From contig OZ025781.1 of assembly GCA_964019425.1 (NCBI GenBank), positions 1,742,501 through 1,806,500 on the forward strand: DNA of 64,000 nucleotides, in the 5' to 3' direction. The position numbers and the translations under genes are program-made. Origin of the DNA: Flectonema sp. DT1601. Lineage: Eukaryota; Euglenozoa; Diplonemea; Diplonemida; Diplonemidae. Positions 37,702 through 64,000 of the stretch are shown here, piece after piece (the first letter of the stretch is position 1; the number at the start of each line of letters is the position of its first letter). Below the pieces are notes generated by a model. The model was given only the letters and a program-made list of their open reading frames with translations. It had not been told where the DNA came from and ran no database searches.

Positions 37702-37727
37702 TTTTTTTTTTTTTTTTTTTTTTTTTT
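37702..37727 (-). repeat. A26 run upstream of the tRNA gene
   Basis: Twenty-six A residues as read on the - strand, ending 13 bases before the 5' end of tRNA-Glu. It could be the poly(A) tail of an old retroposed - strand RNA or simple slippage; the sequence before it is not recognised. Confidence 0.6.
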
Positions 37728-37939
37728 GGTTACACTCGTCTGTGCTTCCAGACTCTTTGTTTTTGTTCTTTTCACTTCTTTGTTTTGTCTTTCTTTTATA
37801 CTTTCTTTTGGTTTAAGTCTGACAAATTGGAAAACACGGGAAACATAGGTAGGCTCCGCCTGAGGACGTAAGAAGAGCGGCAACGGGAAAAAATAAATGG
37901 TCACGCGTCCTTGAAATTGGACACACGAAGCTAATTCGG

Positions 37940-38159
37940 TTACCATTCCTACCATCGATAAGGAAAAACAAAGAATCGAGCATATAACTAGAGCGGTGGT
38001 CAAAGACCACTTGAACAGCCCGAAGGCCTGCCCTCAAGAGAAATTTATAAGGAGAATAGGAGAAAAAGGAGACAGGAGTGTTGGAAGAGACACTGCGACA
38101 ACACCGAAGGTGATGTGCAGTTACCCAACCAGGAGATGATTGATAATGATGAAAATACT
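37940..38159. repeat. 220-bp direct repeat, left copy (flank of LINE)
   Basis: Identical base for base to 43,680-43,899. It abuts the 3' end of the LINE. The duplicated sequence looks like part of the pre-insertion locus, because the right copy continues into an open frame that the left copy loses at the junction. Confidence 0.95.
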
Positions 38160-38187
38160 AAATATTGATAAAACACTTAAATGGCGA

Positions 38188-41100: not shown

Positions 41101-42105
41101 TTTTATAGATTCAGGTGAAGAGGTCTTCCACTTACGTCGGCGCTTGCCCTTAAATAAGATTCTCCTCCGCACGTTCCTCGCAGCTACTTCATGTATTATG
41201 TTATTTAATAATCCAACATTACCAGTGGCATCATCCGAGAACTTAGCCCTATCAATTCTTCTATCAAGTTGCTGTCTGAAAGCACTCCAGTTTGTAGATT
41301 TGAAATCCCAGACAGTTCGTTTCCTTGCTCCAACTGTTGCTTGAGAGAGGTGAGCCATTGTGTCGAAGATAGCGAGTAGAGGTCGATGATCCGAGTTATG
41401 TTTACTGTCTTCATTTATGATTGAAAATTCTTCTAATACAATTGATCCTTTAAAGAATATAACGTCAGGTGAGGTACCACCGCCAGGAATGTCGTGTTTG
41501 GGCCGAGTTATTTGACCAGGTCTGTTTGCTACGAGAACGTCATTGCGATCCGCCCAATTAAATAATTCTTTACCAGATTTGGTTGTCCTGGTAGACCAGA
41601 CGAGGTTGTGTGCGTTGAAGTCGCCCGCAATAATAGACTTCGTTGTGATCGGAAGATCATCTTCTCTAATGATACACCCAGGGGGAGCGTAAACGTTAAT
41701 AACATTGACACCACCAACATTCAGCATCATAGCTTCGATACCGCTTGTTCTCGAAAACAATTCTTCATCACTGATTCCTTGTGAGAAGCATCTCTTTGCC
41801 ATTATTATAATGCCACCACCTTTTGTATTTCTGTCCTTCCTATATGTATAATAGCCAGGGTGCGAAATGTGTTCCTTCGACCAGGTTTCCTGTAAGCACA
41901 GTACATCCGGCGAGTAGTGAGAAAGGAGTCTTTGAATATAAGACCCCTTCTGACTTATCGATCTACAGTTCCAGCTCAACACTGAGAGTAACGAATTTTC
42001 AGGTCCAGGGTTGCGTTCAACGTCGCCTGCCAGCAGTAATAAACTTCGGGTCAGTTCTTTTTCAGTTTGAGAGATAGTCGGTGCTGTTACAGTAGTCGGC
42101 TTCAC
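38188..42105 (-). CDS. LINE ORF2: 2A peptide, APE endonuclease, reverse transcriptase, RNase H, C2HC finger
   Basis: 1,305 codons counted from the GTG at 42,105; no ATG precedes the 2A peptide. Residues 22-35 are the 2A motif. The endonuclease at about 42-250 has LSWNCRSI, CLQETW, AGDFNAHNLVW and SDHRPL. The RT at about 425-700 has RKAAGPDGIHNEMLKN, SYRPITLTSVVGKLAE, FDFTAAFDRINHR, GVPQGSILGPLLY and the catalytic YADD (about 653-656). RNase H from about 1004 has CDGSYSSNASGAAL, TEQHAL, IYTDSKSLLDEL and an HDEVDELAK end. A CX2CX8HX4C finger lies at about 1214-1232. All catalytic residues I checked are present. The frame stays open upstream to the ORF1 stop, so ORF2 is probably made by read-through of that UGA, with 2A releasing a product of about 1,271 residues. 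Confidence 0.93.
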   Translation of the reverse strand: MKPTTVTAPTISQTEKELTRSLLLLAGDVERNPGPENSLLSVLSWNCRSISQKGSYIQRLLSHYSPDVLCLQETWSKEHISHPGYYTYRKDRNTKGGGIIIMAKRCFSQGISDEELFSRTSGIEAMMLNVGGVNVINVYAPPGCIIREDDLPITTKSIIAGDFNAHNLVWSTRTTKSGKELFNWADRNDVLVANRPGQITRPKHDIPGGGTSPDVIFFKGSIVLEEFSIINEDSKHNSDHRPLLAIFDTMAHLSQATVGARKRTVWDFKSTNWSAFRQQLDRRIDRAKFSDDATGNVGLLNNIIHEVAARNVRRRILFKGKRRRKWKTSSPESIKSKGSHLKDQLRKGNNFNFAFKKIKELQQDAGKDISVSNISENDLPAAFLDLSVADGDAAKLEAPSLKKEDLELDICCDFTDTEISAAIKNLKPRKAAGPDGIHNEMLKNLSQKAVDCLLKVINSSWRSSNVPYLWKQGLIKPMFKSGKPRNDIKSYRPITLTSVVGKLAERLVYDRLMHWLTENSALSPIQAGFRRGRNTCEQITILVDAMVNNHTKGRRSVFLSFDFTAAFDRINHRILLSKLQRMGIPTFIVRWITDFLTNRKVRVDANGHFSKFRTLSKGVPQGSILGPLLYLIYVDDLCKILSQEKETTLTALYADDTACAVFGSTMDEAISNAQRILDIVDKWCRDNDMALSVSKTCALKMDIQSKEVTLTDTSDRELLFSKSLEVRSLDIDYFDLDSVINTTTTRPTLLSGETILEVEGKPIRTQQELEDLLMLNIHDEMNVKAKIKIAFLLPITDSVKYLGVYIDNRLRFDKQLEKIHDELKKGISLLQCLQPYELDYKTLKMVKNLYVTARISYALDSFGWLLNQHKTDAIDFEMRKIARLVTGCSRCTPRELLLWEADILPFKRQIEKQTKIAYFRYKAMTWVPDTNSLASPRSFWGGLIPRSEGQLESVGIVQPDSIKPWIASDNVQISNSCGFTKSPDPAVDREKFLTYNATLPPVDMVINCDGSYSSNASGAALIARSRDGKKRAHATRLVRADCSYRTEQHALKNAANYLNWKVQKDGLTKSVRIYTDSKSLLDELKGGRCKQRNTRSLGILENLRNCGMKVHLQFIPSHMGIEAHDEVDELAKKSAHNRYLPQIPIRGSFFYHKSRVRRGITKDIWNRIGYTCYKNTVKGAAIKYPPDMKRSDEIRIANFRTGCHPLMQNWRKAIKCPFCHSAPSNQLHLLVGCPSQKLDAARYEILGFSTLTGKWDRSSDLILINGIPASLGSIFATSWLPSVAMLIRWMEQASNLRLWNCVGDT
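42001..42042 (-). other. 2A ribosome-skipping peptide
   Basis: Encodes LLLLAGDVERNPGP, an exact match to the D(V/I)ExNPGP consensus with the usual hydrophobic run before it. In viruses and in T. cruzi L1Tc this sequence makes the ribosome skip the Gly-Pro bond and release the upstream protein. Confidence 0.95.
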
Positions 42106-42168
42106 CAGAACTTTACTATGATGTGAGTCATTTTTAGAATTTGAAGTTGACGGTGTTCGTTTGTCAAG

Positions 42169-43593
42169 TCAGTTTGAATTATCCATTTCCACATCAGTCG
42201 TTTCAGTAGTATCGGTTGGTTCTTCAGCACAGTGTCGCTTCAGATCACCAGATATAACTGGACCCTTGCCCGGGTTGAAGGTCGGCCCCAATTTGACCGG
42301 CTTTTCTCTTTTAGTTTCCATGTTGATTACAAGGTACGCATCTTTACCCATGTCGACGAAGCTTGGTGATGGAACCGATTCAGAGATTGCAATTAACGTT
42401 TTGTTGCCTCCCTTATGAAAACTAGCCACAATTGTGTGACTCCACTTGTATGCGTGCAACAGGTGATCGCTGATCTGTTGCGTCGTGAACTTCTTAATAG
42501 CCAGTGATTTAATTATAAAACGCTGACCAGTCGGCAGTGCGGGTTTCAGAGAATCCCCGAGTGATTCTCTCACTTTTTGAGTAAACCCGGGTTGAACTTT
42601 CAGCCCAAAGCACTCTCGGAACTTCGTGATGTAGAAGCTACCTTTGATTGCTGAAAGAACTGAAAGTTTGCCCAGCACCGCTTTGAAGCCCAAGTCCTTA
42701 ACGAACTGAACTGTGTTCCAAGAGTCTTGGCCATTAGACCAAGATGGGTTTCTGATGAATAGATCTCTCTTCTCACTGGAGGTGTCGCTGTTGTTGTATT
42801 CCAGAATTTCAGAAATTCTGAAGTTTGGCACACGGATCGCCATAGATGTGTGCATATCGCATTTTTTAAATCCGAAGGGCGATGTCTTCAGCTCCCACTT
42901 TTTAATTAATTCTTTCACCTTAGTGGTGAGAGTGCTCTCTGCTGATTTACTCCAGTCTTGTATGAATAGAACTGGGTCCGGCTGTGGTGGCTCGATGGCG
43001 TCTTCTCTTGCGGCAGTGAAATCTTTGCCACAAATCGGGGTGACAAATACCCTACGAATGACGCAGGTTCCGCACTTCTTTACGACTGGAAGTGCGACTG
43101 GGACTGTTGTTTTAAACAGTTTAGACTTTGAGATGGCAGTCCAGTCGCCCTTCGTTCGTGTTTGCTTCAGTGCTTCATAATCAGCCTTTGAGCTGATGAG
43201 CACGAGTCCGTCCGCGTTGTTTTTGGAGGCATCGATTGCTTCTGAGAATTTAAGCGTAGGTGTTGCTTTAGCCCACGCTGCGTGAATGTACCACTCTGGC
43301 AGAGTGGGTTTCTTGTTGTTGGTAGTTGGCGTCGGGCCTCCATCATTTCCATCCCTCACCGTGCTCGCCGCTTCCTGTCGTTGTCCCCCGGACTCCTTCC
43401 CCTTCCTCTCTTGCTCTGTCGTCTTTCTCTTTGACGACTCTCCTTGTTTCTCTCCGGAGTCCTCCGTCAGCTGCTCCAGCACTCTCATCGTGAGAGTCAA
43501 AACCCTCCTTCTCTTTTCTTCTCCTGCTAGTCCTTTCTCCACTTCTTGTACTAACCGCATCACATCCAAAAGCAGCTCCTTACAACTGCTCAT
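42169..43593 (-). CDS. LINE ORF1 protein
   Basis: 474 residues from the first ATG at 43,593; a TTG-initiated extension to 43,626 is unlikely. Residues 1-45 form a short helical/coiled-coil segment, followed by a Lys/Glu/Gln-rich disordered stretch to about 95. The rest is folded-looking, with KKCGTCVIRRVF and a Trp/Lys-rich middle. The segment near residues 375-420 (RFIIKSLAIKKFTTQQI, then a second strand pair) could be an RRM-like fold as in ORF1 proteins of other LINEs, but I cannot confirm it. An RNA-binding nucleoprotein role is the family expectation. It ends with UGA followed by C, a leaky context, and the same frame runs on into ORF2. L1Tc and ingi are generally described with one large frame, so a separate ORF1 is notable. 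Confidence 0.85.
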   Translation of the reverse strand: MSSCKELLLDVMRLVQEVEKGLAGEEKRRRVLTLTMRVLEQLTEDSGEKQGESSKRKTTEQERKGKESGGQRQEAASTVRDGNDGGPTPTTNNKKPTLPEWYIHAAWAKATPTLKFSEAIDASKNNADGLVLISSKADYEALKQTRTKGDWTAISKSKLFKTTVPVALPVVKKCGTCVIRRVFVTPICGKDFTAAREDAIEPPQPDPVLFIQDWSKSAESTLTTKVKELIKKWELKTSPFGFKKCDMHTSMAIRVPNFRISEILEYNNSDTSSEKRDLFIRNPSWSNGQDSWNTVQFVKDLGFKAVLGKLSVLSAIKGSFYITKFRECFGLKVQPGFTQKVRESLGDSLKPALPTGQRFIIKSLAIKKFTTQQISDHLLHAYKWSHTIVASFHKGGNKTLIAISESVPSPSFVDMGKDAYLVINMETKREKPVKLGPTFNPGKGPVISGDLKRHCAEEPTDTTETTDVEMDNSN

Positions 43594-43657
43594 TATAGTT
43601 TTATGTCTGTCAGAAAACCCGCACAAAATCGACTCTCACCAGGTAATGGTAGGAAAT

Positions 43658-43899: not shown

Positions 43900-44121
43900 G
43901 GAAAGGAGATACCGCAAGCAGCGATCAAGAATCCGGTGAAACACCCGACGAAGGGATGGTGTGATAGGTGTGGAGAGCGGATCGCGAAGGGAACGCGGGT
44001 AGTCATGTGCGTGAAGTGTGACTACGCTGAATGCTGCGGATTGTTGGAGAGATCGCGGCGTGGGAAAGAGAAGAGGAAAAGGAAATCACGGGGATCGCGA
44101 TCGAAAAACGATGCCATGTGA
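43876..44121 (+). CDS. Small zinc-binding (ZZ/ribbon-like) protein, possibly a fragment
   Basis: 81 residues from the ATG at 43,876; the frame is open back to 43,732, giving up to 129 residues without another ATG. Four Cys in two pairs (WCDRCGERIAKGTRVV, then MCVKCDYAECCG) resemble a ZZ-type or similar zinc finger. The C-terminus is very Lys/Arg-rich, like a nuclear localisation signal. The LINE insertion duplicated and separated its 5' part. It may be the 3' end of a host gene or of another mobile element; no family is named. Confidence 0.4.
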   Translation: MIDNDENTGKEIPQAAIKNPVKHPTKGWCDRCGERIAKGTRVVMCVKCDYAECCGLLERSRRGKEKRKRKSRGSRSKNDAM

Positions 44122-44527
44122 GAAGCATGAAACGGAAAGTGAATGAACGGAAAAAATTAAATGTAAAGAAGTGAACTTGTAAAAAATGTAAAGAAGCAAA
44201 CATGTTAAAAGAAAAATGAAAAAAAAAAAAAAAAGAAGAGTGAAAAGGAAGACAGAGTTGTATGTAAACTGTATGTAAATGTAAGAAGAAAGAAAAAACA
44301 CGCTGGAAGTGGGAGTGCAACCATCAGCGCAAACACAACCACAAATATTGTTTTTTTTTTCCTTTTTCTTTTCTTCGCTTCGGCGACAGATATGGTAGGA
44401 CCTAGAAAACCGGCCCAAAACTTGTGTTGCAGTTTATCTTTTTAGCGCACACTCATGTAACATAAGGATCGCTGGTTCCGAGGGTTTGCTCTCCTGCCAT
44501 ACTTGCCTCTCACCTCCCTCAAAAAAA
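44122..44527 (+). other. Spacer between zinc ORF and satellite array
   Basis: About 0.4 kb, purine-rich to 44,320 with a run of about 16 A near 44,219-44,234, then pyrimidine-rich. No gene seen. It ends in CCTCCCTC and seven A residues directly before the SL sequence. Confidence 0.5.
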
Positions 44528-44566
44528 AACCAACGATTCTAAAGCTACAGTTTCTGTACTTTATTG
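44528..44566 (+). other. Complete 39-nt spliced-leader sequence fused to the satellite array
   Basis: Runs from AACCAACGATTCTAAAGC to CAGTTTCTGTACTTTATTG, 39 nt, the usual SL length in kinetoplastids and diplonemids. It is followed by TTTTTTCCC and not by the GT of an SL RNA intron, so this is not an SL RNA gene. It ends exactly at the first base of the 463-bp repeat unit, at the position where all later units have CACAG. It looks like the 5' end of a reverse-transcribed, trans-spliced RNA. Confidence 0.9.
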
Positions 44567-47500
44567 TTTTTTCCCTCCCTCGCCCCATCCCCGTCAGCGA
44601 GTAGGAAAGCGCAGCTAGGAATTTTTCCACGCAAGCGGATCCCACAACCCGACCACCCTTCCCCACGCTCACCCCATCCACCCTCCCCCACCCCAACAAA
44701 AGAAGAAAACGGCGGCAGCCACGTGACACACTCGTGTTCGTGTAGCGAAGCGTTTCGGCGACTTCGAAGACGACGACGACGACGACGACGTAGAAGAGAC
44801 GGTGTATGTGACTGACCTTCTTCTTCCTTATTTATCTATTTACTTTTGTTAATTACTTCCTCTTAATTTCATTCCTCTCTTAGATTGTTGTTTATTTGCT
44901 TATTTATTTGTTTGTTTATTTGTCTGTTTATCTGTCTGTATATTCTGTTACTATCTGTTATCTTGTTACATTTATCTGTATATTAGAGTACATTTTTGTT
45001 ATTGTTAAATTAAAACATCTTCTTCACAGTTTTTTCCCTCCCTCGCCCCATCCCCGTCAGCGAGTAGGAAAGCGCAGCTAGGAATTTTTCCACGCAAGCG
45101 GATCCCACAACCCGACCACCCTTCCCCACGCTCACCCCATCCACCCTCCCCCACCCCAACAAAAGAAGAAAACGGCGGCAGCCACGTGACACACTCGTGT
45201 TCGTGTAGCGAAGCGTTTCGGCGACTTCGAAGACGACGACGACGACGACGACGTAGAAGAGACGGTGTATGTGACTGACCTTCTTCTTCCTTATTTATCT
45301 ATTTACTTTTGTTAATTACTTCCTCTTAATTTCATTCCTCTCTTAGATTGTTGTTTATTTGCTTATTTATTTGTTTGTTTATTTGTCTGTTTATCTGTCT
45401 GTATATTCTGTTACTATCTGTTATCTTGTTACATTTATCTGTATATTAGAGTACATTTTTGTTATTGTTAAATTAAAACATCTTCTTCACAGTTTTTTCC
45501 CTCCCTCGCCCCATCCCCGTCAGCGAGTAGGAAAGCGCAGCTAGGAATTTTTCCACGCAAGCGGATCCCACAACCCGACCACCCTTCCCCACGCTCACCC
45601 CATCCACCCTCCCCCACCCCAACAAAAGAAGAAAACGGCGGCAGCCACGTGACACACTCGTGTTCGTGTAGCGAAGCGTTTCGGCGACTTCGAAGACGAC
45701 GACGACGACGACGACGTAGAAGAGACGGTGTATGTGACTGACCTTCTTCTTCCTTATTTATCTATTTACTTTTGTTAATTACTTCCTCTTAATTTCATTC
45801 CTCTCTTAGATTGTTGTTTATTTGCTTATTTATTTGTTTGTTTATTTGTCTGTTTATCTGTCTGTATATTCTGTTACTATCTGTTATCTTGTTACATTTA
45901 TCTGTATATTAGAGTACATTTTTGTTATTGTTAAATTAAAACATCTTCTTCACAGTTTTTTCCCTCCCTCGCCCCATCCCCGTCAGCGAGTAGGAAAGCG
46001 CAGCTAGGAATTTTTCCACGCAAGCGGATCCCACAACCCGACCACCCTTCCCCACGCTCACCCCATCCACCCTCCCCCACCCCAACAAAAGAAGAAAACG
46101 GCGGCAGCCACGTGACACACTCGTGTTCGTGTAGCGAAGCGTTTCGGCGACTTCGAAGACGACGACGACGACGACGACGTAGAAGAGACGGTGTATGTGA
46201 CTGACCTTCTTCTTCCTTATTTATCTATTTACTTTTGTTAATTACTTCCTCTTAATTTCATTCCTCTCTTAGATTGTTGTTTATTTGCTTATTTATTTGT
46301 TTGTTTATTTGTCTGTTTATCTGTCTGTATATTCTGTTACTATCTGTTATCTTGTTACATTTATCTGTATATTAGAGTACATTTTTGTTATTGTTAAATT
46401 AAAACATCTTCTTCACAGTTTTTTCCCTCCCTCGCCCCATCCCCGTCAGCGAGTAGGAAAGCGCAGCTAGGAATTTTTCCACGCAAGCGGATCCCACAAC
46501 CCGACCACCCTTCCCCACGCTCACCCCATCCACCCTCCCCCACCCCAACAAAAGAAGAAAACGGCGGCAGCCACGTGACACACTCGTGTTCGTGTAGCGA
46601 AGCGTTTCGGCGACTTCGAAGACGACGACGACGACGACGACGTAGAAGAGACGGTGTATGTGACTGACCTTCTTCTTCCTTATTTATCTATTTACTTTTG
46701 TTAATTACTTCCTCTTAATTTCATTCCTCTCTTAGATTGTTGTTTATTTGCTTATTTATTTGTTTGTTTATTTGTCTGTTTATCTGTCTGTATATTCTGT
46801 TACTATCTGTTATCTTGTTACATTTATCTGTATATTAGAGTACATTTTTGTTATTGTTAAATTAAAACATCTTCTTCACAGTTTTTTCCCTCCCTCGCCC
46901 CATCCCCGTCAGCGAGTAGGAAAGCGCAGCTAGGAATTTTTCCACGCAAGCGGATCCCACAACCCGACCACCCTTCCCCACGCTCACCCCATCCACCCTC
47001 CCCCACCCCAACAAAAGAAGAAAACGGCGGCAGCCACGTGACACACTCGTGTTCGTGTAGCGAAGCGTTTCGGCGACTTCGAAGACGACGACGACGACGA
47101 CGACGTAGAAGAGACGGTGTATGTGACTGACCTTCTTCTTCCTTATTTATCTATTTACTTTTGTTAATTACTTCCTCTTAATTTCATTCCTCTCTTAGAT
47201 TGTTGTTTATTTGCTTATTTATTTGTTTGTTTATTTGTCTGTTTATCTGTCTGTATATTCTGTTACTATCTGTTATCTTGTTACATTTATCTGTATATTA
47301 GAGTACATTTTTGTTATTGTTAAATTAAAACATCTTCTTCACAGTTTTTTCCCTCCCTCGCCCCATCCCCGTCAGCGAGTAGGAAAGCGCAGCTAGGAAT
47401 TTTTCCACGCAAGCGGATCCCACAACCCGACCACCCTTCCCCACGCTCACCCCATCCACCCTCCCCCACCCCAACAAAAGAAGAAAACGGCGGCAGCCAC

Positions 47501-50500
47501 GTGACACACTCGTGTTCGTGTAGCGAAGCGTTTCGGCGACTTCGAAGACGACGACGACGACGACGACGTAGAAGAGACGGTGTATGTGACTGACCTTCTT
47601 CTTCCTTATTTATCTATTTACTTTTGTTAATTACTTCCTCTTAATTTCATTCCTCTCTTAGATTGTTGTTTATTTGCTTATTTATTTGTTTGTTTATTTG
47701 TCTGTTTATCTGTCTGTATATTCTGTTACTATCTGTTATCTTGTTACATTTATCTGTATATTAGAGTACATTTTTGTTATTGTTAAATTAAAACATCTTC
47801 TTCACAGTTTTTTCCCTCCCTCGCCCCATCCCCGTCAGCGAGTAGGAAAGCGCAGCTAGGAATTTTTCCACGCAAGCGGATCCCACAACCCGACCACCCT
47901 TCCCCACGCTCACCCCATCCACCCTCCCCCACCCCAACAAAAGAAGAAAACGGCGGCAGCCACGTGACACACTCGTGTTCGTGTAGCGAAGCGTTTCGGC
48001 GACTTCGAAGACGACGACGACGACGACGACGTAGAAGAGACGGTGTATGTGACTGACCTTCTTCTTCCTTATTTATCTATTTACTTTTGTTAATTACTTC
48101 CTCTTAATTTCATTCCTCTCTTAGATTGTTGTTTATTTGCTTATTTATTTGTTTGTTTATTTGTCTGTTTATCTGTCTGTATATTCTGTTACTATCTGTT
48201 ATCTTGTTACATTTATCTGTATATTAGAGTACATTTTTGTTATTGTTAAATTAAAACATCTTCTTCACAGTTTTTTCCCTCCCTCGCCCCATCCCCGTCA
48301 GCGAGTAGGAAAGCGCAGCTAGGAATTTTTCCACGCAAGCGGATCCCACAACCCGACCACCCTTCCCCACGCTCACCCCATCCACCCTCCCCCACCCCAA
48401 CAAAAGAAGAAAACGGCGGCAGCCACGTGACACACTCGTGTTCGTGTAGCGAAGCGTTTCGGCGACTTCGAAGACGACGACGACGACGACGACGTAGAAG
48501 AGACGGTGTATGTGACTGACCTTCTTCTTCCTTATTTATCTATTTACTTTTGTTAATTACTTCCTCTTAATTTCATTCCTCTCTTAGATTGTTGTTTATT
48601 TGCTTATTTATTTGTTTGTTTATTTGTCTGTTTATCTGTCTGTATATTCTGTTACTATCTGTTATCTTGTTACATTTATCTGTATATTAGAGTACATTTT
48701 TGTTATTGTTAAATTAAAACATCTTCTTCACAGTTTTTTCCCTCCCTCGCCCCATCCCCGTCAGCGAGTAGGAAAGCGCAGCTAGGAATTTTTCCACGCA
48801 AGCGGATCCCACAACCCGACCACCCTTCCCCACGCTCACCCCATCCACCCTCCCCCACCCCAACAAAAGAAGAAAACGGCGGCAGCCACGTGACACACTC
48901 GTGTTCGTGTAGCGAAGCGTTTCGGCGACTTCGAAGACGACGACGACGACGACGACGTAGAAGAGACGGTGTATGTGACTGACCTTCTTCTTCCTTATTT
49001 ATCTATTTACTTTTGTTAATTACTTCCTCTTAATTTCATTCCTCTCTTAGATTGTTGTTTATTTGCTTATTTATTTGTTTGTTTATTTGTCTGTTTATCT
49101 GTCTGTATATTCTGTTACTATCTGTTATCTTGTTACATTTATCTGTATATTAGAGTACATTTTTGTTATTGTTAAATTAAAACATCTTCTTCACAGTTTT
49201 TTCCCTCCCTCGCCCCATCCCCGTCAGCGAGTAGGAAAGCGCAGCTAGGAATTTTTCCACGCAAGCGGATCCCACAACCCGACCACCCTTCCCCACGCTC
49301 ACCCCATCCACCCTCCCCCACCCCAACAAAAGAAGAAAACGGCGGCAGCCACGTGACACACTCGTGTTCGTGTAGCGAAGCGTTTCGGCGACTTCGAAGA
49401 CGACGACGACGACGACGACGTAGAAGAGACGGTGTATGTGACTGACCTTCTTCTTCCTTATTTATCTATTTACTTTTGTTAATTACTTCCTCTTAATTTC
49501 ATTCCTCTCTTAGATTGTTGTTTATTTGCTTATTTATTTGTTTGTTTATTTGTCTGTTTATCTGTCTGTATATTCTGTTACTATCTGTTATCTTGTTACA
49601 TTTATCTGTATATTAGAGTACATTTTTGTTATTGTTAAATTAAAACATCTTCTTCACAGTTTTTTCCCTCCCTCGCCCCATCCCCGTCAGCGAGTAGGAA
49701 AGCGCAGCTAGGAATTTTTCCACGCAAGCGGATCCCACAACCCGACCACCCTTCCCCACGCTCACCCCATCCACCCTCCCCCACCCCAACAAAAGAAGAA
49801 AACGGCGGCAGCCACGTGACACACTCGTGTTCGTGTAGCGAAGCGTTTCGGCGACTTCGAAGACGACGACGACGACGACGACGTAGAAGAGACGGTGTAT
49901 GTGACTGACCTTCTTCTTCCTTATTTATCTATTTACTTTTGTTAATTACTTCCTCTTAATTTCATTCCTCTCTTAGATTGTTGTTTATTTGCTTATTTAT
50001 TTGTTTGTTTATTTGTCTGTTTATCTGTCTGTATATTCTGTTACTATCTGTTATCTTGTTACATTTATCTGTATATTAGAGTACATTTTTGTTATTGTTA
50101 AATTAAAACATCTTCTTCACAGTTTTTTCCCTCCCTCGCCCCATCCCCGTCAGCGAGTAGGAAAGCGCAGCTAGGAATTTTTCCACGCAAGCGGATCCCA
50201 CAACCCGACCACCCTTCCCCACGCTCACCCCATCCACCCTCCCCCACCCCAACAAAAGAAGAAAACGGCGGCAGCCACGTGACACACTCGTGTTCGTGTA
50301 GCGAAGCGTTTCGGCGACTTCGAAGACGACGACGACGACGACGACGTAGAAGAGACGGTGTATGTGACTGACCTTCTTCTTCCTTATTTATCTATTTACT
50401 TTTGTTAATTACTTCCTCTTAATTTCATTCCTCTCTTAGATTGTTGTTTATTTGCTTATTTATTTGTTTGTTTATTTGTCTGTTTATCTGTCTGTATATT

Positions 50501-53500
50501 CTGTTACTATCTGTTATCTTGTTACATTTATCTGTATATTAGAGTACATTTTTGTTATTGTTAAATTAAAACATCTTCTTCACAGTTTTTTCCCTCCCTC
50601 GCCCCATCCCCGTCAGCGAGTAGGAAAGCGCAGCTAGGAATTTTTCCACGCAAGCGGATCCCACAACCCGACCACCCTTCCCCACGCTCACCCCATCCAC
50701 CCTCCCCCACCCCAACAAAAGAAGAAAACGGCGGCAGCCACGTGACACACTCGTGTTCGTGTAGCGAAGCGTTTCGGCGACTTCGAAGACGACGACGACG
50801 ACGACGACGTAGAAGAGACGGTGTATGTGACTGACCTTCTTCTTCCTTATTTATCTATTTACTTTTGTTAATTACTTCCTCTTAATTTCATTCCTCTCTT
50901 AGATTGTTGTTTATTTGCTTATTTATTTGTTTGTTTATTTGTCTGTTTATCTGTCTGTATATTCTGTTACTATCTGTTATCTTGTTACATTTATCTGTAT
51001 ATTAGAGTACATTTTTGTTATTGTTAAATTAAAACATCTTCTTCACAGTTTTTTCCCTCCCTCGCCCCATCCCCGTCAGCGAGTAGGAAAGCGCAGCTAG
51101 GAATTTTTCCACGCAAGCGGATCCCACAACCCGACCACCCTTCCCCACGCTCACCCCATCCACCCTCCCCCACCCCAACAAAAGAAGAAAACGGCGGCAG
51201 CCACGTGACACACTCGTGTTCGTGTAGCGAAGCGTTTCGGCGACTTCGAAGACGACGACGACGACGACGACGTAGAAGAGACGGTGTATGTGACTGACCT
51301 TCTTCTTCCTTATTTATCTATTTACTTTTGTTAATTACTTCCTCTTAATTTCATTCCTCTCTTAGATTGTTGTTTATTTGCTTATTTATTTGTTTGTTTA
51401 TTTGTCTGTTTATCTGTCTGTATATTCTGTTACTATCTGTTATCTTGTTACATTTATCTGTATATTAGAGTACATTTTTGTTATTGTTAAATTAAAACAT
51501 CTTCTTCACAGTTTTTTCCCTCCCTCGCCCCATCCCCGTCAGCGAGTAGGAAAGCGCAGCTAGGAATTTTTCCACGCAAGCGGATCCCACAACCCGACCA
51601 CCCTTCCCCACGCTCACCCCATCCACCCTCCCCCACCCCAACAAAAGAAGAAAACGGCGGCAGCCACGTGACACACTCGTGTTCGTGTAGCGAAGCGTTT
51701 CGGCGACTTCGAAGACGACGACGACGACGACGACGTAGAAGAGACGGTGTATGTGACTGACCTTCTTCTTCCTTATTTATCTATTTACTTTTGTTAATTA
51801 CTTCCTCTTAATTTCATTCCTCTCTTAGATTGTTGTTTATTTGCTTATTTATTTGTTTGTTTATTTGTCTGTTTATCTGTCTGTATATTCTGTTACTATC
51901 TGTTATCTTGTTACATTTATCTGTATATTAGAGTACATTTTTGTTATTGTTAAATTAAAACATCTTCTTCACAGTTTTTTCCCTCCCTCGCCCCATCCCC
52001 GTCAGCGAGTAGGAAAGCGCAGCTAGGAATTTTTCCACGCAAGCGGATCCCACAACCCGACCACCCTTCCCCACGCTCACCCCATCCACCCTCCCCCACC
52101 CCAACAAAAGAAGAAAACGGCGGCAGCCACGTGACACACTCGTGTTCGTGTAGCGAAGCGTTTCGGCGACTTCGAAGACGACGACGACGACGACGACGTA
52201 GAAGAGACGGTGTATGTGACTGACCTTCTTCTTCCTTATTTATCTATTTACTTTTGTTAATTACTTCCTCTTAATTTCATTCCTCTCTTAGATTGTTGTT
52301 TATTTGCTTATTTATTTGTTTGTTTATTTGTCTGTTTATCTGTCTGTATATTCTGTTACTATCTGTTATCTTGTTACATTTATCTGTATATTAGAGTACA
52401 TTTTTGTTATTGTTAAATTAAAACATCTTCTTCACAGTTTTTTCCCTCCCTCGCCCCATCCCCGTCAGCGAGTAGGAAAGCGCAGCTAGGAATTTTTCCA
52501 CGCAAGCGGATCCCACAACCCGACCACCCTTCCCCACGCTCACCCCATCCACCCTCCCCCACCCCAACAAAAGAAGAAAACGGCGGCAGCCACGTGACAC
52601 ACTCGTGTTCGTGTAGCGAAGCGTTTCGGCGACTTCGAAGACGACGACGACGACGACGACGTAGAAGAGACGGTGTATGTGACTGACCTTCTTCTTCCTT
52701 ATTTATCTATTTACTTTTGTTAATTACTTCCTCTTAATTTCATTCCTCTCTTAGATTGTTGTTTATTTGCTTATTTATTTGTTTGTTTATTTGTCTGTTT
52801 ATCTGTCTGTATATTCTGTTACTATCTGTTATCTTGTTACATTTATCTGTATATTAGAGTACATTTTTGTTATTGTTAAATTAAAACATCTTCTTCACAG
52901 TTTTTTCCCTCCCTCGCCCCATCCCCGTCAGCGAGTAGGAAAGCGCAGCTAGGAATTTTTCCACGCAAGCGGATCCCACAACCCGACCACCCTTCCCCAC
53001 GCTCACCCCATCCACCCTCCCCCACCCCAACAAAAGAAGAAAACGGCGGCAGCCACGTGACACACTCGTGTTCGTGTAGCGAAGCGTTTCGGCGACTTCG
53101 AAGACGACGACGACGACGACGACGTAGAAGAGACGGTGTATGTGACTGACCTTCTTCTTCCTTATTTATCTATTTACTTTTGTTAATTACTTCCTCTTAA
53201 TTTCATTCCTCTCTTAGATTGTTGTTTATTTGCTTATTTATTTGTTTGTTTATTTGTCTGTTTATCTGTCTGTATATTCTGTTACTATCTGTTATCTTGT
53301 TACATTTATCTGTATATTAGAGTACATTTTTGTTATTGTTAAATTAAAACATCTTCTTCACAGTTTTTTCCCTCCCTCGCCCCATCCCCGTCAGCGAGTA
53401 GGAAAGCGCAGCTAGGAATTTTTCCACGCAAGCGGATCCCACAACCCGACCACCCTTCCCCACGCTCACCCCATCCACCCTCCCCCACCCCAACAAAAGA

Positions 53501-56500
53501 AGAAAACGGCGGCAGCCACGTGACACACTCGTGTTCGTGTAGCGAAGCGTTTCGGCGACTTCGAAGACGACGACGACGACGACGACGTAGAAGAGACGGT
53601 GTATGTGACTGACCTTCTTCTTCCTTATTTATCTATTTACTTTTGTTAATTACTTCCTCTTAATTTCATTCCTCTCTTAGATTGTTGTTTATTTGCTTAT
53701 TTATTTGTTTGTTTATTTGTCTGTTTATCTGTCTGTATATTCTGTTACTATCTGTTATCTTGTTACATTTATCTGTATATTAGAGTACATTTTTGTTATT
53801 GTTAAATTAAAACATCTTCTTCACAGTTTTTTCCCTCCCTCGCCCCATCCCCGTCAGCGAGTAGGAAAGCGCAGCTAGGAATTTTTCCACGCAAGCGGAT
53901 CCCACAACCCGACCACCCTTCCCCACGCTCACCCCATCCACCCTCCCCCACCCCAACAAAAGAAGAAAACGGCGGCAGCCACGTGACACACTCGTGTTCG
54001 TGTAGCGAAGCGTTTCGGCGACTTCGAAGACGACGACGACGACGACGACGTAGAAGAGACGGTGTATGTGACTGACCTTCTTCTTCCTTATTTATCTATT
54101 TACTTTTGTTAATTACTTCCTCTTAATTTCATTCCTCTCTTAGATTGTTGTTTATTTGCTTATTTATTTGTTTGTTTATTTGTCTGTTTATCTGTCTGTA
54201 TATTCTGTTACTATCTGTTATCTTGTTACATTTATCTGTATATTAGAGTACATTTTTGTTATTGTTAAATTAAAACATCTTCTTCACAGTTTTTTCCCTC
54301 CCTCGCCCCATCCCCGTCAGCGAGTAGGAAAGCGCAGCTAGGAATTTTTCCACGCAAGCGGATCCCACAACCCGACCACCCTTCCCCACGCTCACCCCAT
54401 CCACCCTCCCCCACCCCAACAAAAGAAGAAAACGGCGGCAGCCACGTGACACACTCGTGTTCGTGTAGCGAAGCGTTTCGGCGACTTCGAAGACGACGAC
54501 GACGACGACGACGTAGAAGAGACGGTGTATGTGACTGACCTTCTTCTTCCTTATTTATCTATTTACTTTTGTTAATTACTTCCTCTTAATTTCATTCCTC
54601 TCTTAGATTGTTGTTTATTTGCTTATTTATTTGTTTGTTTATTTGTCTGTTTATCTGTCTGTATATTCTGTTACTATCTGTTATCTTGTTACATTTATCT
54701 GTATATTAGAGTACATTTTTGTTATTGTTAAATTAAAACATCTTCTTCACAGTTTTTTCCCTCCCTCGCCCCATCCCCGTCAGCGAGTAGGAAAGCGCAG
54801 CTAGGAATTTTTCCACGCAAGCGGATCCCACAACCCGACCACCCTTCCCCACGCTCACCCCATCCACCCTCCCCCACCCCAACAAAAGAAGAAAACGGCG
54901 GCAGCCACGTGACACACTCGTGTTCGTGTAGCGAAGCGTTTCGGCGACTTCGAAGACGACGACGACGACGACGACGTAGAAGAGACGGTGTATGTGACTG
55001 ACCTTCTTCTTCCTTATTTATCTATTTACTTTTGTTAATTACTTCCTCTTAATTTCATTCCTCTCTTAGATTGTTGTTTATTTGCTTATTTATTTGTTTG
55101 TTTATTTGTCTGTTTATCTGTCTGTATATTCTGTTACTATCTGTTATCTTGTTACATTTATCTGTATATTAGAGTACATTTTTGTTATTGTTAAATTAAA
55201 ACATCTTCTTCACAGTTTTTTCCCTCCCTCGCCCCATCCCCGTCAGCGAGTAGGAAAGCGCAGCTAGGAATTTTTCCACGCAAGCGGATCCCACAACCCG
55301 ACCACCCTTCCCCACGCTCACCCCATCCACCCTCCCCCACCCCAACAAAAGAAGAAAACGGCGGCAGCCACGTGACACACTCGTGTTCGTGTAGCGAAGC
55401 GTTTCGGCGACTTCGAAGACGACGACGACGACGACGACGTAGAAGAGACGGTGTATGTGACTGACCTTCTTCTTCCTTATTTATCTATTTACTTTTGTTA
55501 ATTACTTCCTCTTAATTTCATTCCTCTCTTAGATTGTTGTTTATTTGCTTATTTATTTGTTTGTTTATTTGTCTGTTTATCTGTCTGTATATTCTGTTAC
55601 TATCTGTTATCTTGTTACATTTATCTGTATATTAGAGTACATTTTTGTTATTGTTAAATTAAAACATCTTCTTCACAGTTTTTTCCCTCCCTCGCCCCAT
55701 CCCCGTCAGCGAGTAGGAAAGCGCAGCTAGGAATTTTTCCACGCAAGCGGATCCCACAACCCGACCACCCTTCCCCACGCTCACCCCATCCACCCTCCCC
55801 CACCCCAACAAAAGAAGAAAACGGCGGCAGCCACGTGACACACTCGTGTTCGTGTAGCGAAGCGTTTCGGCGACTTCGAAGACGACGACGACGACGACGA
55901 CGTAGAAGAGACGGTGTATGTGACTGACCTTCTTCTTCCTTATTTATCTATTTACTTTTGTTAATTACTTCCTCTTAATTTCATTCCTCTCTTAGATTGT
56001 TGTTTATTTGCTTATTTATTTGTTTGTTTATTTGTCTGTTTATCTGTCTGTATATTCTGTTACTATCTGTTATCTTGTTATATTTATCTGTATATTAGAG
56101 TACATTTTTGTTATTGTTAAATTAAAACATCTTCTTCACAGTTTTTTCCCTCCCTCGCCCCATCCCCGTCAGCGAGTAGGAAAGCGCAGCTAGGAATTTT
56201 TCCACGCAAGCGGATCCCACAACCCGACCACCCTTCCCCACGCTCACCCCATCCACCCTCCCCCACCCCAACAAAAGAAGAAAACGGCGGCAGCCACGTG
56301 ACACACTCGTGTTCGTGTAGCGAAGCGTTTCGGCGACTTCGAAGACGACGACGACGACGACGACGTAGAAGAGACGGTGTATGTGACTGACCTTCTTCTT
56401 CCTTATTTATCTATTTACTTTTGTTAATTACTTCCTCTTAATTTCATTCCTCTCTTAGATTGTTGTTTATTTGCTTATTTATTTGTTTGTTTATTTGTCT

Positions 56501-59500
56501 GTTTATCTGTCTGTATATTCTGTTACTATCTGTTATCTTGTTACATTTATCTGTATATTAGAGTACATTTTTGTTATTGTTAAATTAAAACATCTTCTTC
56601 ACAGTTTTTTCCCTCCCTCGCCCCATCCCCGTCAGCGAGTAGGAAAGCGCAGCTAGGAATTTTTCCACGCAAGCGGATCCCACAACCCGACCACCCTTCC
56701 CCACGCTCACCCCATCCACCCTCCCCCACCCCAACAAAAGAAGAAAACGGCGGCAGCCACGTGACACACTCGTGTTCGTGTAGCGAAGCGTTTCGGCGAC
56801 TTCGAAGACGACGACGACGACGACGACGTAGAAGAGACGGTGTATGTGACTGACCTTCTTCTTCCTTATTTATCTATTTACTTTTGTTAATTACTTCCTC
56901 TTAATTTCATTCCTCTCTTAGATTGTTGTTTATTTGCTTATTTATTTGTTTGTTTATTTGTCTGTTTATCTGTCTGTATATTCTGTTACTATCTGTTATC
57001 TTGTTACATTTATCTGTATATTAGAGTACATTTTTGTTATTGTTAAATTAAAACATCTTCTTCACAGTTTTTTCCCTCCCTCGCCCCATCCCCGTCAGCG
57101 AGTAGGAAAGCGCAGCTAGGAATTTTTCCACGCAAGCGGATCCCACAACCCGACCACCCTTCCCCACGCTCACCCCATCCACCCTCCCCCACCCCAACAA
57201 AAGAAGAAAACGGCGGCAGCCACGTGACACACTCGTGTTCGTGTAGCGAAGCGTTTCGGCGACTTCGAAGACGACGACGACGACGACGACGTAGAAGAGA
57301 CGGTGTATGTGACTGACCTTCTTCTTCCTTATTTATCTATTTACTTTTGTTAATTACTTCCTCTTAATTTCATTCCTCTCTTAGATTGTTGTTTATTTGC
57401 TTATTTATTTGTTTGTTTATTTGTCTGTTTATCTGTCTGTATATTCTGTTACTATCTGTTATCTTGTTACATTTATCTGTATATTAGAGTACATTTTTGT
57501 TATTGTTAAATTAAAACATCTTCTTCACAGTTTTTTCCCTCCCTCGCCCCATCCCCGTCAGCGAGTAGGAAAGCGCAGCTAGGAATTTTTCCACGCAAGC
57601 GGATCCCACAACCCGACCACCCTTCCCCACGCTCACCCCATCCACCCTCCCCCACCCCAACAAAAGAAGAAAACGGCGGCAGCCACGTGACACACTCGTG
57701 TTCGTGTAGCGAAGCGTTTCGGCGACTTCGAAGACGACGACGACGACGACGACGTAGAAGAGACGGTGTATGTGACTGACCTTCTTCTTCCTTATTTATC
57801 TATTTACTTTTGTTAATTACTTCCTCTTAATTTCATTCCTCTCTTAGATTGTTGTTTATTTGCTTATTTATTTGTTTGTTTATTTGTCTGTTTATCTGTC
57901 TGTATATTCTGTTACTATCTGTTATCTTGTTACATTTATCTGTATATTAGAGTACATTTTTGTTATTGTTAAATTAAAACATCTTCTTCACAGTTTTTTC
58001 CCTCCCTCGCCCCATCCCCGTCAGCGAGTAGGAAAGCGCAGCTAGGAATTTTTCCACGCAAGCGGATCCCACAACCCGACCACCCTTCCCCACGCTCACC
58101 CCATCCACCCTCCCCCACCCCAACAAAAGAAGAAAACGGCGGCAGCCACGTGACACACTCGTGTTCGTGTAGCGAAGCGTTTCGGCGACTTCGAAGACGA
58201 CGACGACGACGACGACGTAGAAGAGACGGTGTATGTGACTGACCTTCTTCTTCCTTATTTATCTATTTACTTTTGTTAATTACTTCCTCTTAATTTCATT
58301 CCTCTCTTAGATTGTTGTTTATTTGCTTATTTATTTGTTTGTTTATTTGTCTGTTTATCTGTCTGTATATTCTGTTACTATCTGTTATCTTGTTACATTT
58401 ATCTGTATATTAGAGTACATTTTTGTTATTGTTAAATTAAAACATCTTCTTCACAGTTTTTTCCCTCCCTCGCCCCATCCCCGTCAGCGAGTAGGAAAGC
58501 GCAGCTAGGAATTTTTCCACGCAAGCGGATCCCACAACCCGACCACCCTTCCCCACGCTCACCCCATCCACCCTCCCCCACCCCAACAAAAGAAGAAAAC
58601 GGCGGCAGCCACGTGACACACTCGTGTTCGTGTAGCGAAGCGTTTCGGCGACTTCGAAGACGACGACGACGACGACGACGTAGAAGAGACGGTGTATGTG
58701 ACTGACCTTCTTCTTCCTTATTTATCTATTTACTTTTGTTAATTACTTCCTCTTAATTTCATTCCTCTCTTAGATTGTTGTTTATTTGCTTATTTATTTG
58801 TTTGTTTATTTGTCTGTTTATCTGTCTGTATATTCTGTTACTATCTGTTATCTTGTTACATTTATCTGTATATTAGAGTACATTTTTGTTATTGTTAAAT
58901 TAAAACATCTTCTTCACAGTTTTTTCCCTCCCTCGCCCCATCCCCGTCAGCGAGTAGGAAAGCGCAGCTAGGAATTTTTCCACGCAAGCGGATCCCACAA
59001 CCCGACCACCCTTCCCCACGCTCACCCCATCCACCCTCCCCCACCCCAACAAAAGAAGAAAACGGCGGCAGCCACGTGACACACTCGTGTTCGTGTAGCG
59101 AAGCGTTTCGGCGACTTCGAAGACGACGACGACGACGACGACGTAGAAGAGACGGTGTATGTGACTGACCTTCTTCTTCCTTATTTATCTATTTACTTTT
59201 GTTAATTACTTCCTCTTAATTTCATTCCTCTCTTAGATTGTTGTTTATTTGCTTATTTATTTGTTTGTTTATTTGTCTGTTTATCTGTCTGTATATTCTG
59301 TTACTATCTGTTATCTTGTTACATTTATCTGTATATTAGAGTACATTTTTGTTATTGTTAAATTAAAACATCTTCTTCACAGTTTTTTCCCTCCCTCGCC
59401 CCATCCCCGTCAGCGAGTAGGAAAGCGCAGCTAGGAATTTTTCCACGCAAGCGGATCCCACAACCCGACCACCCTTCCCCACGCTCACCCCATCCACCCT

Positions 59501-62500
59501 CCCCCACCCCAACAAAAGAAGAAAACGGCGGCAGCCACGTGACACACTCGTGTTCGTGTAGCGAAGCGTTTCGGCGACTTCGAAGACGACGACGACGACG
59601 ACGACGTAGAAGAGACGGTGTATGTGACTGACCTTCTTCTTCCTTATTTATCTATTTACTTTTGTTAATTACTTCCTCTTAATTTCATTCCTCTCTTAGA
59701 TTGTTGTTTATTTGCTTATTTATTTGTTTGTTTATTTGTCTGTTTATCTGTCTGTATATTCTGTTACTATCTGTTATCTTGTTACATTTATCTGTATATT
59801 AGAGTACATTTTTGTTATTGTTAAATTAAAACATCTTCTTCACAGTTTTTTCCCTCCCTCGCCCCATCCCCGTCAGCGAGTAGGAAAGCGCAGCTAGGAA
59901 TTTTTCCACGCAAGCGGATCCCACAACCCGACCACCCTTCCCCACGCTCACCCCATCCACCCTCCCCCACCCCAACAAAAGAAGAAAACGGCGGCAGCCA
60001 CGTGACACACTCGTGTTCGTGTAGCGAAGCGTTTCGGCGACTTCGAAGACGACGACGACGACGACGACGTAGAAGAGACGGTGTATGTGACTGACCTTCT
60101 TCTTCCTTATTTATCTATTTACTTTTGTTAATTACTTCCTCTTAATTTCATTCCTCTCTTAGATTGTTGTTTATTTGCTTATTTATTTGTTTGTTTATTT
60201 GTCTGTTTATCTGTCTGTATATTCTGTTACTATCTGTTATCTTGTTACATTTATCTGTATATTAGAGTACATTTTTGTTATTGTTAAATTAAAACATCTT
60301 CTTCACAGTTTTTTCCCTCCCTCGCCCCATCCCCGTCAGCGAGTAGGAAAGCGCAGCTAGGAATTTTTCCACGCAAGCGGATCCCACAACCCGACCACCC
60401 TTCCCCACGCTCACCCCATCCACCCTCCCCCACCCCAACAAAAGAAGAAAACGGCGGCAGCCACGTGACACACTCGTGTTCGTGTAGCGAAGCGTTTCGG
60501 CGACTTCGAAGACGACGACGACGACGACGACGTAGAAGAGACGGTGTATGTGACTGACCTTCTTCTTCCTTATTTATCTATTTACTTTTGTTAATTACTT
60601 CCTCTTAATTTCATTCCTCTCTTAGATTGTTGTTTATTTGCTTATTTATTTGTTTGTTTATTTGTCTGTTTATCTGTCTGTATATTCTGTTACTATCTGT
60701 TATCTTGTTATATTTATCTGTATATTAGAGTACATTTTTGTTATTGTTAAATTAAAACATCTTCTTCACAGTTTTTTCCCTCCCTCGCCCCATCCCCGTC
60801 AGCGAGTAGGAAAGCGCAGCTAGGAATTTTTCCACGCAAGCGGATCCCACAACCCGACCACCCTTCCCCACGCTCACCCCATCCACCCTCCCCCACCCCA
60901 ACAAAAGAAGAAAACGGCGGCAGCCACGTGACACACTCGTGTTCGTGTAGCGAAGCGTTTCGGCGACTTCGAAGACGACGACGACGACGACGACGTAGAA
61001 GAGACGGTGTATGTGACTGACCTTCTTCTTCCTTATTTATCTATTTACTTTTGTTAATTACTTCCTCTTAATTTCATTCCTCTCTTAGATTGTTGTTTAT
61101 TTGCTTATTTATTTGTTTGTTTATTTGTCTGTTTATCTGTCTGTATATTCTGTTACTATCTGTTATCTTGTTACATTTATCTGTATATTAGAGTACATTT
61201 TTGTTATTGTTAAATTAAAACATCTTCTTCACAGTTTTTTCCCTCCCTCGCCCCATCCCCGTCAGCGAGTAGGAAAGCGCAGCTAGGAATTTTTCCACGC
61301 AAGCGGATCCCACAACCCGACCACCCTTCCCCACGCTCACCCCATCCACCCTCCCCCACCCCAACAAAAGAAGAAAACGGCGGCAGCCACGTGACACACT
61401 CGTGTTCGTGTAGCGAAGCGTTTCGGCGACTTCGAAGACGACGACGACGACGACGACGTAGAAGAGACGGTGTATGTGACTGACCTTCTTCTTCCTTATT
61501 TATCTATTTACTTTTGTTAATTACTTCCTCTTAATTTCATTCCTCTCTTAGATTGTTGTTTATTTGCTTATTTATTTGTTTGTTTATTTGTCTGTTTATC
61601 TGTCTGTATATTCTGTTACTATCTGTTATCTTGTTACATTTATCTGTATATTAGAGTACATTTTTGTTATTGTTAAATTAAAACATCTTCTTCACAGTTT
61701 TTTCCCTCCCTCGCCCCATCCCCGTCAGCGAGTAGGAAAGCGCAGCTAGGAATTTTTCCACGCAAGCGGATCCCACAACCCGACCACCCTTCCCCACGCT
61801 CACCCCATCCACCCTCCCCCACCCCAACAAAAGAAGAAAACGGCGGCAGCCACGTGACACACTCGTGTTCGTGTAGCGAAGCGTTTCGGCGACTTCGAAG
61901 ACGACGACGACGACGACGACGTAGAAGAGACGGTGTATGTGACTGACCTTCTTCTTCCTTATTTATCTATTTACTTTTGTTAATTACTTCCTCTTAATTT
62001 CATTCCTCTCTTAGATTGTTGTTTATTTGCTTATTTATTTGTTTGTTTATTTGTCTGTTTATCTGTCTGTATATTCTGTTACTATCTGTTATCTTGTTAC
62101 ATTTATCTGTATATTAGAGTACATTTTTGTTATTGTTAAATTAAAACATCTTCTTCACAGTTTTTTCCCTCCCTCGCCCCATCCCCGTCAGCGAGTAGGA
62201 AAGCGCAGCTAGGAATTTTTCCACGCAAGCGGATCCCACAACCCGACCACCCTTCCCCACGCTCACCCCATCCACCCTCCCCCACCCCAACAAAAGAAGA
62301 AAACGGCGGCAGCCACGTGACACACTCGTGTTCGTGTAGCGAAGCGTTTCGGCGACTTCGAAGACGACGACGACGACGACGACGTAGAAGAGACGGTGTA
62401 TGTGACTGACCTTCTTCTTCCTTATTTATCTATTTACTTTTGTTAATTACTTCCTCTTAATTTCATTCCTCTCTTAGATTGTTGTTTATTTGCTTATTTA

Positions 62501-64000
62501 TTTGTTTGTTTATTTGTCTGTTTATCTGTCTGTATATTCTGTTACTATCTGTTATCTTGTTACATTTATCTGTATATTAGAGTACATTTTTGTTATTGTT
62601 AAATTAAAACATCTTCTTCACAGTTTTTTCCCTCCCTCGCCCCATCCCCGTCAGCGAGTAGGAAAGCGCAGCTAGGAATTTTTCCACGCAAGCGGATCCC
62701 ACAACCCGACCACCCTTCCCCACGCTCACCCCATCCACCCTCCCCCACCCCAACAAAAGAAGAAAACGGCGGCAGCCACGTGACACACTCGTGTTCGTGT
62801 AGCGAAGCGTTTCGGCGACTTCGAAGACGACGACGACGACGACGACGTAGAAGAGACGGTGTATGTGACTGACCTTCTTCTTCCTTATTTATCTATTTAC
62901 TTTTGTTAATTACTTCCTCTTAATTTCATTCCTCTCTTAGATTGTTGTTTATTTGCTTATTTATTTGTTTGTTTATTTGTCTGTTTATCTGTCTGTATAT
63001 TCTGTTACTATCTGTTATCTTGTTACATTTATCTGTATATTAGAGTACATTTTTGTTATTGTTAAATTAAAACATCTTCTTCACAGTTTTTTCCCTCCCT
63101 CGCCCCATCCCCGTCAGCGAGTAGGAAAGCGCAGCTAGGAATTTTTCCACGCAAGCGGATCCCACAACCCGACCACCCTTCCCCACGCTCACCCCATCCA
63201 CCCTCCCCCACCCCAACAAAAGAAGAAAACGGCGGCAGCCACGTGACACACTCGTGTTCGTGTAGCGAAGCGTTTCGGCGACTTCGAAGACGACGACGAC
63301 GACGACGACGTAGAAGAGACGGTGTATGTGACTGACCTTCTTCTTCCTTATTTATCTATTTACTTTTGTTAATTACTTCCTCTTAATTTCATTCCTCTCT
63401 TAGATTGTTGTTTATTTGCTTATTTATTTGTTTGTTTATTTGTCTGTTTATCTGTCTGTATATTCTGTTACTATCTGTTATCTTGTTACATTTATCTGTA
63501 TATTAGAGTACATTTTTGTTATTGTTAAATTAAAACATCTTCTTCACAGTTTTTTCCCTCCCTCGCCCCATCCCCGTCAGCGAGTAGGAAAGCGCAGCTA
63601 GGAATTTTTCCACGCAAGCGGATCCCACAACCCGACCACCCTTCCCCACGCTCACCCCATCCACCCTCCCCCACCCCAACAAAAGAAGAAAACGGCGGCA
63701 GCCACGTGACACACTCGTGTTCGTGTAGCGAAGCGTTTCGGCGACTTCGAAGACGACGACGACGACGACGACGTAGAAGAGACGGTGTATGTGACTGACC
63801 TTCTTCTTCCTTATTTATCTATTTACTTTTGTTAATTACTTCCTCTTAATTTCATTCCTCTCTTAGATTGTTGTTTATTTGCTTATTTATTTGTTTGTTT
63901 ATTTGTCTGTTTATCTGTCTGTATATTCTGTTACTATCTGTTATCTTGTTACATTTATCTGTATATTAGAGTACATTTTTGTTATTGTTAAATTAAAACA
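44567..64000. repeat. 463-bp tandem satellite array, 41 full copies plus 451 bp, continuing past the window
   Basis: Counting the unit from the T after AG (44,567, 45,030 and so on), each has a T6 run, a C-rich 130-bp part, CACGTGACACACTCG, a (GAC)7 run, then long pyrimidine and TTTA/TTTG-rich DNA ending CTTCTTCACAG. Copies look identical except C to T at 56,081 and 60,711, exactly ten units apart. Each copy contains 60-61-codon open frames on both strands, which I take as accidental. AG sites after pyrimidine tracts (CTCTCTTAG and TTCTTCACAG) make + strand transcripts good trans-splicing substrates. I see no tRNA, 5S or SL RNA gene inside the unit. Confidence 0.97.

Follow-up and report, generated by a model that had tools for sequence, protein, structure and literature searches.

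A spliced leader heads a putative RLE-type non-LTR retrotransposon with acceptor-bounded repeat units in the diplonemid Flectonema sp. DT1601

The window analysed here, a stretch of 64,000 nucleotides, ends within a long array of tandem repeats that opens with a complete 39-nt spliced leader (SL), AACCAACGATTCTAAAGCTACAGTTTCTGTACTTTATTG. The question raised by this locus is how a whole SL came to stand in the genome where a repeat would have its splice acceptor. In agreement with the initial annotation, the SL directly abuts a run of six Ts (T6), and in later units, beginning with unit 2 at position 45030, the same run is preceded by CTTCTTCACAG. The junction had been described as exact to the base; it does lie at the acceptor position, but it is ambiguous by one base because the SL and the acceptor both end in G. 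A 20-nt core of the SL gave a single match within the 64-kb window with up to three mismatches allowed (shuffle mean 0.01). The complete units of the array were identical in 39 of 41 cases, and the other two share one substitution. In the 60 nt that end with the acceptor AG, the pyrimidine content was only 58%. The predicted RNA fold of the SL plus unit 1 was no more stable than those of shuffled sequences (z = 1.29), and the Rfam scan of the window gave one tRNA as its sole match. The coordinates of these features are provided in Table 1.

Table 1. Features of the SL-headed array and of its upstream flank in the window
Feature	Positions	Strand	Basis
Complete 39-nt SL, 5′ end of the putative retrotransposon copy	44528..44566	+	sequence, core search, 17 SL-bearing copies
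Segment p of unit 1, 186 nt; after the SL, recurs as terminal partial unit before the body	44567..44752	+	
Segment q of unit 1, 277 nt; T-rich, ends in the acceptor; proposed outron (putative function)	44753..45029	+	
CTTCTTCACAG, putative trans-splice acceptor at unit boundary; at all 41/41 unit ends in the window	45019..45029	+	
Tandem array of 463-bp units: 41 complete in the window; total of 51 plus a 186-bp partial unit, end beyond the window	44567..64000	+	
A-run directly upstream of the SL	44521..44527	+	
Upstream flank type A	43900..44520	+	likeness to flanks of C53, C17 and C27

The host genome contains 702 exact copies of the SL 37-mer, 620 of which continue with GTACAGT and not with the T6/C-rich sequence that the initial annotation had named as the contrary case. 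These 620 copies support, at sequence level, the identification of the 39-nt segment as the SL. Two sampled SL RNA gene arrays (unit lengths, 623 and 610 bp) comprised the SL followed by GT, together with a 5S rRNA gene. In addition, the SL is two letters away from one listed euglenozoan SL. The SL, its linkage to 5S rRNA and the protein hits point to a euglenozoan host, perhaps a diplonemid. The possibility that the window SL is a fragment of an SL RNA gene was rejected, given that it is followed by T6 in place of the GT donor and the SL intron.

A 65-nt query spanning the SL–T6 junction was searched in the 89.5-Mb host assembly, and other genomic copies with the same SL edge, whose search had been proposed, were found at 16 places, distributed over 14 contigs; 13 of them matched the query at all 65 positions, two at 64 and one at 98%. 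Thirteen of the 16 arrays were read to their end, where a partial unit of about 186 bp is followed by one common body; in the other three (C24, C27 and C30) the start of the body behind the array was found by letter pattern only. The shared body was alike over up to 7 kb, with at least 97% identity over long stretches in most of the pairs listed. A search for the body start that was independent of the SL returned 18 places, namely the 16 junctions, a chimeric copy on C52 (L056) and a 5′-truncated copy without SL on C34 (L096, C34:623300-624400); in the body start of the latter, the AAGTCTTTT repeat is multiplied. The SL was exact over its last 37 nt in all 17 SL-bearing copies of this family (family 1), and in 15 of them its first bases were present as well. 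This exactness is weak evidence, because the first units of 16 copies differ on average in only 0.8% of their bases, and two or three SL changes in all would be expected under drift. The number of complete units (n), derived from the coordinates of junction and body start, was 1 in 11 of the 17 copies, including the chimera, and 6 in two, the remaining values being 26, 34, 51 (the window copy) and approximately 107. The pattern of the 3′ end of the family had 88 matches in the genome with up to two mismatches, some of them possibly from relatives, which suggests from sequence that most family-1 copies are without their 5′ end.

The organization of the element is SL, n units of about 463 bp, a 186-bp partial unit, a frame of 2885 codons, a 3′UTR and an A tail, which amounts to 11.2 kb with one unit. 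This length was obtained from C23, in which two copies lie head to tail with their SLs at 413941 and 425184; the first of them has a single open frame of 2885 codons, with the first ATG at codon 46, and then the 3′UTR; long terminal repeats were not noticed in it. In all of four other copies with unique flanks (4/4), the 3′ end was ...TATCTTCCCG followed by an A tract. The second C23 copy (L018) bears, from C23:425860 onward, an insertion of about 740 bp in its body, 731 bp of which are 100% identical to positions 37711-38441 of the window. Pfam revealed OTU, RVT_1 (PF00078) and UCH domains in the element frame. A database protein identical over the searched reverse transcriptase (RT) region (P0001) carries RVT_1 (PF00078) and RNase H1 N-terminal domains. 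After the RT, CCHC and D..D motifs could be aligned in most of the 15 sequences compared, with P0013 unaligned and P0032 diverged at that place, and we take this pattern to be that of a restriction-like endonuclease (RLE). The nearest named relative was the SLACS 132 kDa protein (SLACS-like) of Diplonema papillatum, with 37% identity. The RT half, searched against solved structures, matched 13 sequences, all of them ubiquitin hydrolases. The RT domain, the C-terminal CCHC/D..D motifs and the 3′ A tail that define an RLE-type non-LTR element are all present, and the array does not stand independent of a mobile element. Judged by its sequence, the window repeat is the front of an RLE-type non-LTR retrotransposon and its satellite appearance is only apparent. 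The designation as a satellite must consequently be abandoned: most copies consist of one full and one partial unit in the 5′ region of this element.

In our opinion, with a probability of roughly 0.85, the RNA of the element was trans-spliced, reverse-transcribed and inserted together with its SL, which stands in consequence at the 5′ end of the new copy. The RNA would be made from a putative promoter within the array or by read-through, and the host SL would be added in the cell at the AG closing a repeat unit. The SL-capped RNA would then serve as template for reverse transcription from its A tail, insertion usually taking place beside A-runs, for instance those in the 3′ tails of other elements. 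A copy made in this way would open with the SL exactly at the acceptor position. Since each unit has an acceptor of its own, the array could yield further SL-capped RNAs, and the number of units would afterwards shift in place, here to 51. The earlier proposal that RNA of the repeat was trans-spliced, reverse-transcribed and reinserted is retained as the most likely one, but not in its form of a satellite RNA added at the border of an array already present. The junction and its recurrence, the body with its tail, the related families, the alternative acceptors and the local homogeneity of the arrays are direct observations. In this regard, a genomic SL at the place where the RNA has its acceptor AG is the mark of an SL-tagged retrocopy, and in family 1 the next unit shows the acceptor at the corresponding position.

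The related families bear on whether the SL is acquired anew. In family 2, the SL is joined at the position after CCCCCAG in four read copies (L025, L050, L055 and L051, the last with one mismatch in the SL) and in five others (L067, L075, L076, L080 and L081) it follows CATTCAG, which lies 20 nt further downstream within this repeat; L075 and L076 share their flank, and the downstream type thus represents four insertion sites. As far as can be judged from sequence, an SL at either of two AGs is likely what trans-splicing would give. Two further families with their own repeats have units ending in CCTCTCAG and carry the SL at the matching place (L052 in one; L062 and L085 in the other).

Alternatively, the element could carry the SL as a fixed component passed on by inheritance, with an internal promoter starting at the first SL base and no fresh trans-splicing in each cycle. 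This would explain both the full unit kept in the n = 1 copies and the near-absence of copies without a full unit, and internal promoters are described for trypanosomatid non-LTR elements (Pr77; PMC8190864). However, we consider it improbable given the two AGs of family 2. By number of substitutions, L050, joined at the upstream AG, is nearest to the downstream-type L075 and L076 (one) and farther from L055 of its own type (four), in a distance table that includes poorly aligned columns (deletions, A tracts and the two-unit L025); in the eight variable columns up to position 351, L050 had no substitution difference from L075 and L076. This suggests, with few sites to judge by, that the type of junction in family 2 does not follow descent.

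A second argument against an inherited SL is that the SL also heads truncated pieces of elements and many other sequences. In L087 and L089 it precedes 5′-truncated pieces of family-1 coding sequence, with matches of 98 and 100%. In a catalogue restricted to exact copies of an SL 33-mer, from which mutated SLs were left out, 69 SL instances outside SL genes were read and fell into 24 sequence clusters; in 45 of the 69, a frame of 60 codons or more begins at the first ATG present within 150 nt. In L040, L057, L063, L071, L088 and L091, a new SL is joined to an older one that was cut after an AG inside it.

Other members of this catalogue showed additional particularities. In L033 (C3:8330) and L093 (C83:399319), the SL is followed by the relic TACTTTATTG, which is not cut after AG. 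One of the clusters comprises 13 SL-headed members, most of them starting with ATCTCGATCC (L031, L033, L039, L061, L064, L069, L078, L082, L083, L088, L092, L093 and L095). L053, L070 and L038 have sequence other than the SL intron after the SL and upstream sequence of SL RNA genes before it, the matches, SL included, being of 139, 99 and 73 bp, respectively; shorter matches of this kind were found in L054, L077, L083 and L095. These are read as retrocopies, which may lie behind an SL promoter.

It must be noted that the use of a unit-end acceptor removes everything upstream of it, and therefore copies without a full unit should arise and be common. None was found among the 17 SL-bearing copies of family 1 nor among the 12 of the related families (those of family 2 listed above together with L052, L062 and L085), L044 being too short to judge. 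The only candidate is L105, possibly a decayed case, in which a shortened SL and p are joined to other sequence. Two reasons could account for this scarcity: RNAs that lack a full unit make poor templates, or the unit is restored during insertion. In the chimera L056 on C52, the SL and the p of the L052 family precede q, p and body of family 1, and the change from one family to the other falls on the usual p/q boundary. Additionally, the first and the last p were identical in 10 of the 13 copies compared; in the copy on C47 the two are not identical and q begins with a variant letter. Both the chimera and the identity of the p segments fit a template switch, but also recombination. A possible though doubtful extension of the preferred reading is that the unit is a self-renewing trans-splicing module, in which p would hold promoter and 5′UTR and q would be an outron with the acceptor. 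The unit would be rebuilt at each jump by the reverse transcriptase switching from unspliced RNA (q-p-body) to SL-capped RNA (SL-p). If this were true, L056 would be a template switch caught in the act, and this would account for the near-absence of copies without a full unit and for the match between first and last p in the 10 copies.

Directly before the SL, 4 to 8 As were present in 15 of the 17 SL-bearing copies, whereas in the other two (C54b and C1) there were no As and the first letter of the SL was absent. The upstream flank of the window copy (43900-44520 plus the A-run) belongs to type A and is 98.9-99.7% identical over about 630 bp to the C53, C17 and C27 loci, with a weaker likeness to the flank type A′. 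Both types are repeated sequences, probably the tails of other retroelements, and in L010, L015 and L018 the upstream flank is the 3′ end of the own family. No clear target-site duplication was seen in the four copies inspected by eye.

These data also bear on the remaining explanations of the junction. That the RNA came from a satellite without any link to a mobile element and, once trans-spliced, was retroposed at the edge of the array accounts for the SL, the array and the exact junction, all of them real, but it is very unlikely in view of the retrotransposon body behind the 13 arrays read to their end, the body start behind the other three and the presence of only one full unit in 11 of the 17 SL-bearing copies. 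It is equally improbable that the SL was acquired when the element inserted into an SL RNA gene or recombined with one. The SLACS, CZAR and CRE elements do insert in such genes (PMC12278014), and some other SL-headed sequences (L053, L070 and L038) have SL-gene sequence upstream. However, the flanks of family 1 are A-runs, ends of elements and unrelated sequence, no SL-gene upstream region was seen in them, and the first bases of the SL are present in 15 of the 17 copies. An assembly artefact or chimera, which the long array and the position of the window copy near the contig end might suggest, is scarcely conceivable: the junction occurs at 16 places distributed over 14 contigs, at 10 of these places n is 1 and a long array is absent, and related families with different repeats show such a junction too.

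With respect to known systems, mouse L1 also has tandem 5′ monomers, in variable number, before a non-LTR element, but these are promoter units that are not known to carry trans-splice acceptors or an SL. The SLACS, CZAR and CRE elements of trypanosomatids are of RLE type and resemble family 1 in the RT with RLE motif, the A tail and, in some species, internal repeat regions (PMC12278014). In contrast, they lie inside SL RNA genes, while family 1 lies beside A-runs, element tails and other sequence and carries the SL before acceptor-bounded units. The ingi and L1Tc elements, with the internal promoter Pr77, are likewise non-LTR elements of a trans-splicing group, but their transcripts are described as unspliced (PMC8190864). 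In the mRNA recycling of dinoflagellates, trans-spliced RNA of host genes has been reverse-transcribed and reinserted, leaving a genomic SL or stacked relics (PMC12014239; PMC3229502). The SL there marks retroposed trans-spliced RNA, as it probably does here, but there it belongs to host genes and here to an autonomous-looking retrotransposon and its relatives in another eukaryotic group. The use of an SL in Paulinella has been described as well (PMC6053224). The genome paper of Diplonema reports SLACS-like reverse transcriptases and SL-5S-U2 repeats, and an SL-headed element was not met in the accessible part of it (PMC10161547). Within the literature searched, composed mostly of papers open without subscription and published outside preprint servers, we found no report of a non-LTR element that opens with an SL before acceptor-bounded repeats. 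SL-tagged retrogenes were already known from dinoflagellates, and the SL-headed retrotransposon with acceptor-bounded units is without precedent in that literature.

On the preferred reading, the copies constitute a DNA record of trans-splicing, each one marking which AG took the SL, and they extend SL-marked retroposition beyond dinoflagellates to another group and to autonomous-looking elements. They also suggest how, in a host that trans-splices, a retrotransposon could come by capped RNA fit for translation even if no promoter lies at its exact 5′ end.

The window copy and that on C52 do not differ in the 463-bp unit or in any of the 1834 bp of body that were compared, yet n is 51 in the former and 1 in the latter, and therefore the size of the array has changed since the two lineages split; their upstream flanks differ (78% alike over 167 bp). 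On this sequence comparison, the number of units would change in place after insertion, in the window copy to 51. Units within an array were identical on C53 and on C17 (6/6 in each) and on C30 and C27 (17/17 units read in each), while on C24 there were two kinds among the 16 units read. The copies on C6 and C53 showed no base difference in the compared body and 13 differences in the unit, and therefore units can be exchanged apart from the body. Whether the arrays are a stock of acceptors, spent by jumping and regrown in place, is a question that can now be tested directly.

Upstream of the array, the window contains on the reverse strand (38191-43635) a non-LTR element of APE type, with RVT_1 and endonuclease domains in 38191-42168. 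Its frame includes GDVERNPGP, which we take to resemble a 2A peptide. Finally, a 17-bp tandem repeat with 10.5 perfect copies was found at positions 16059-16236.
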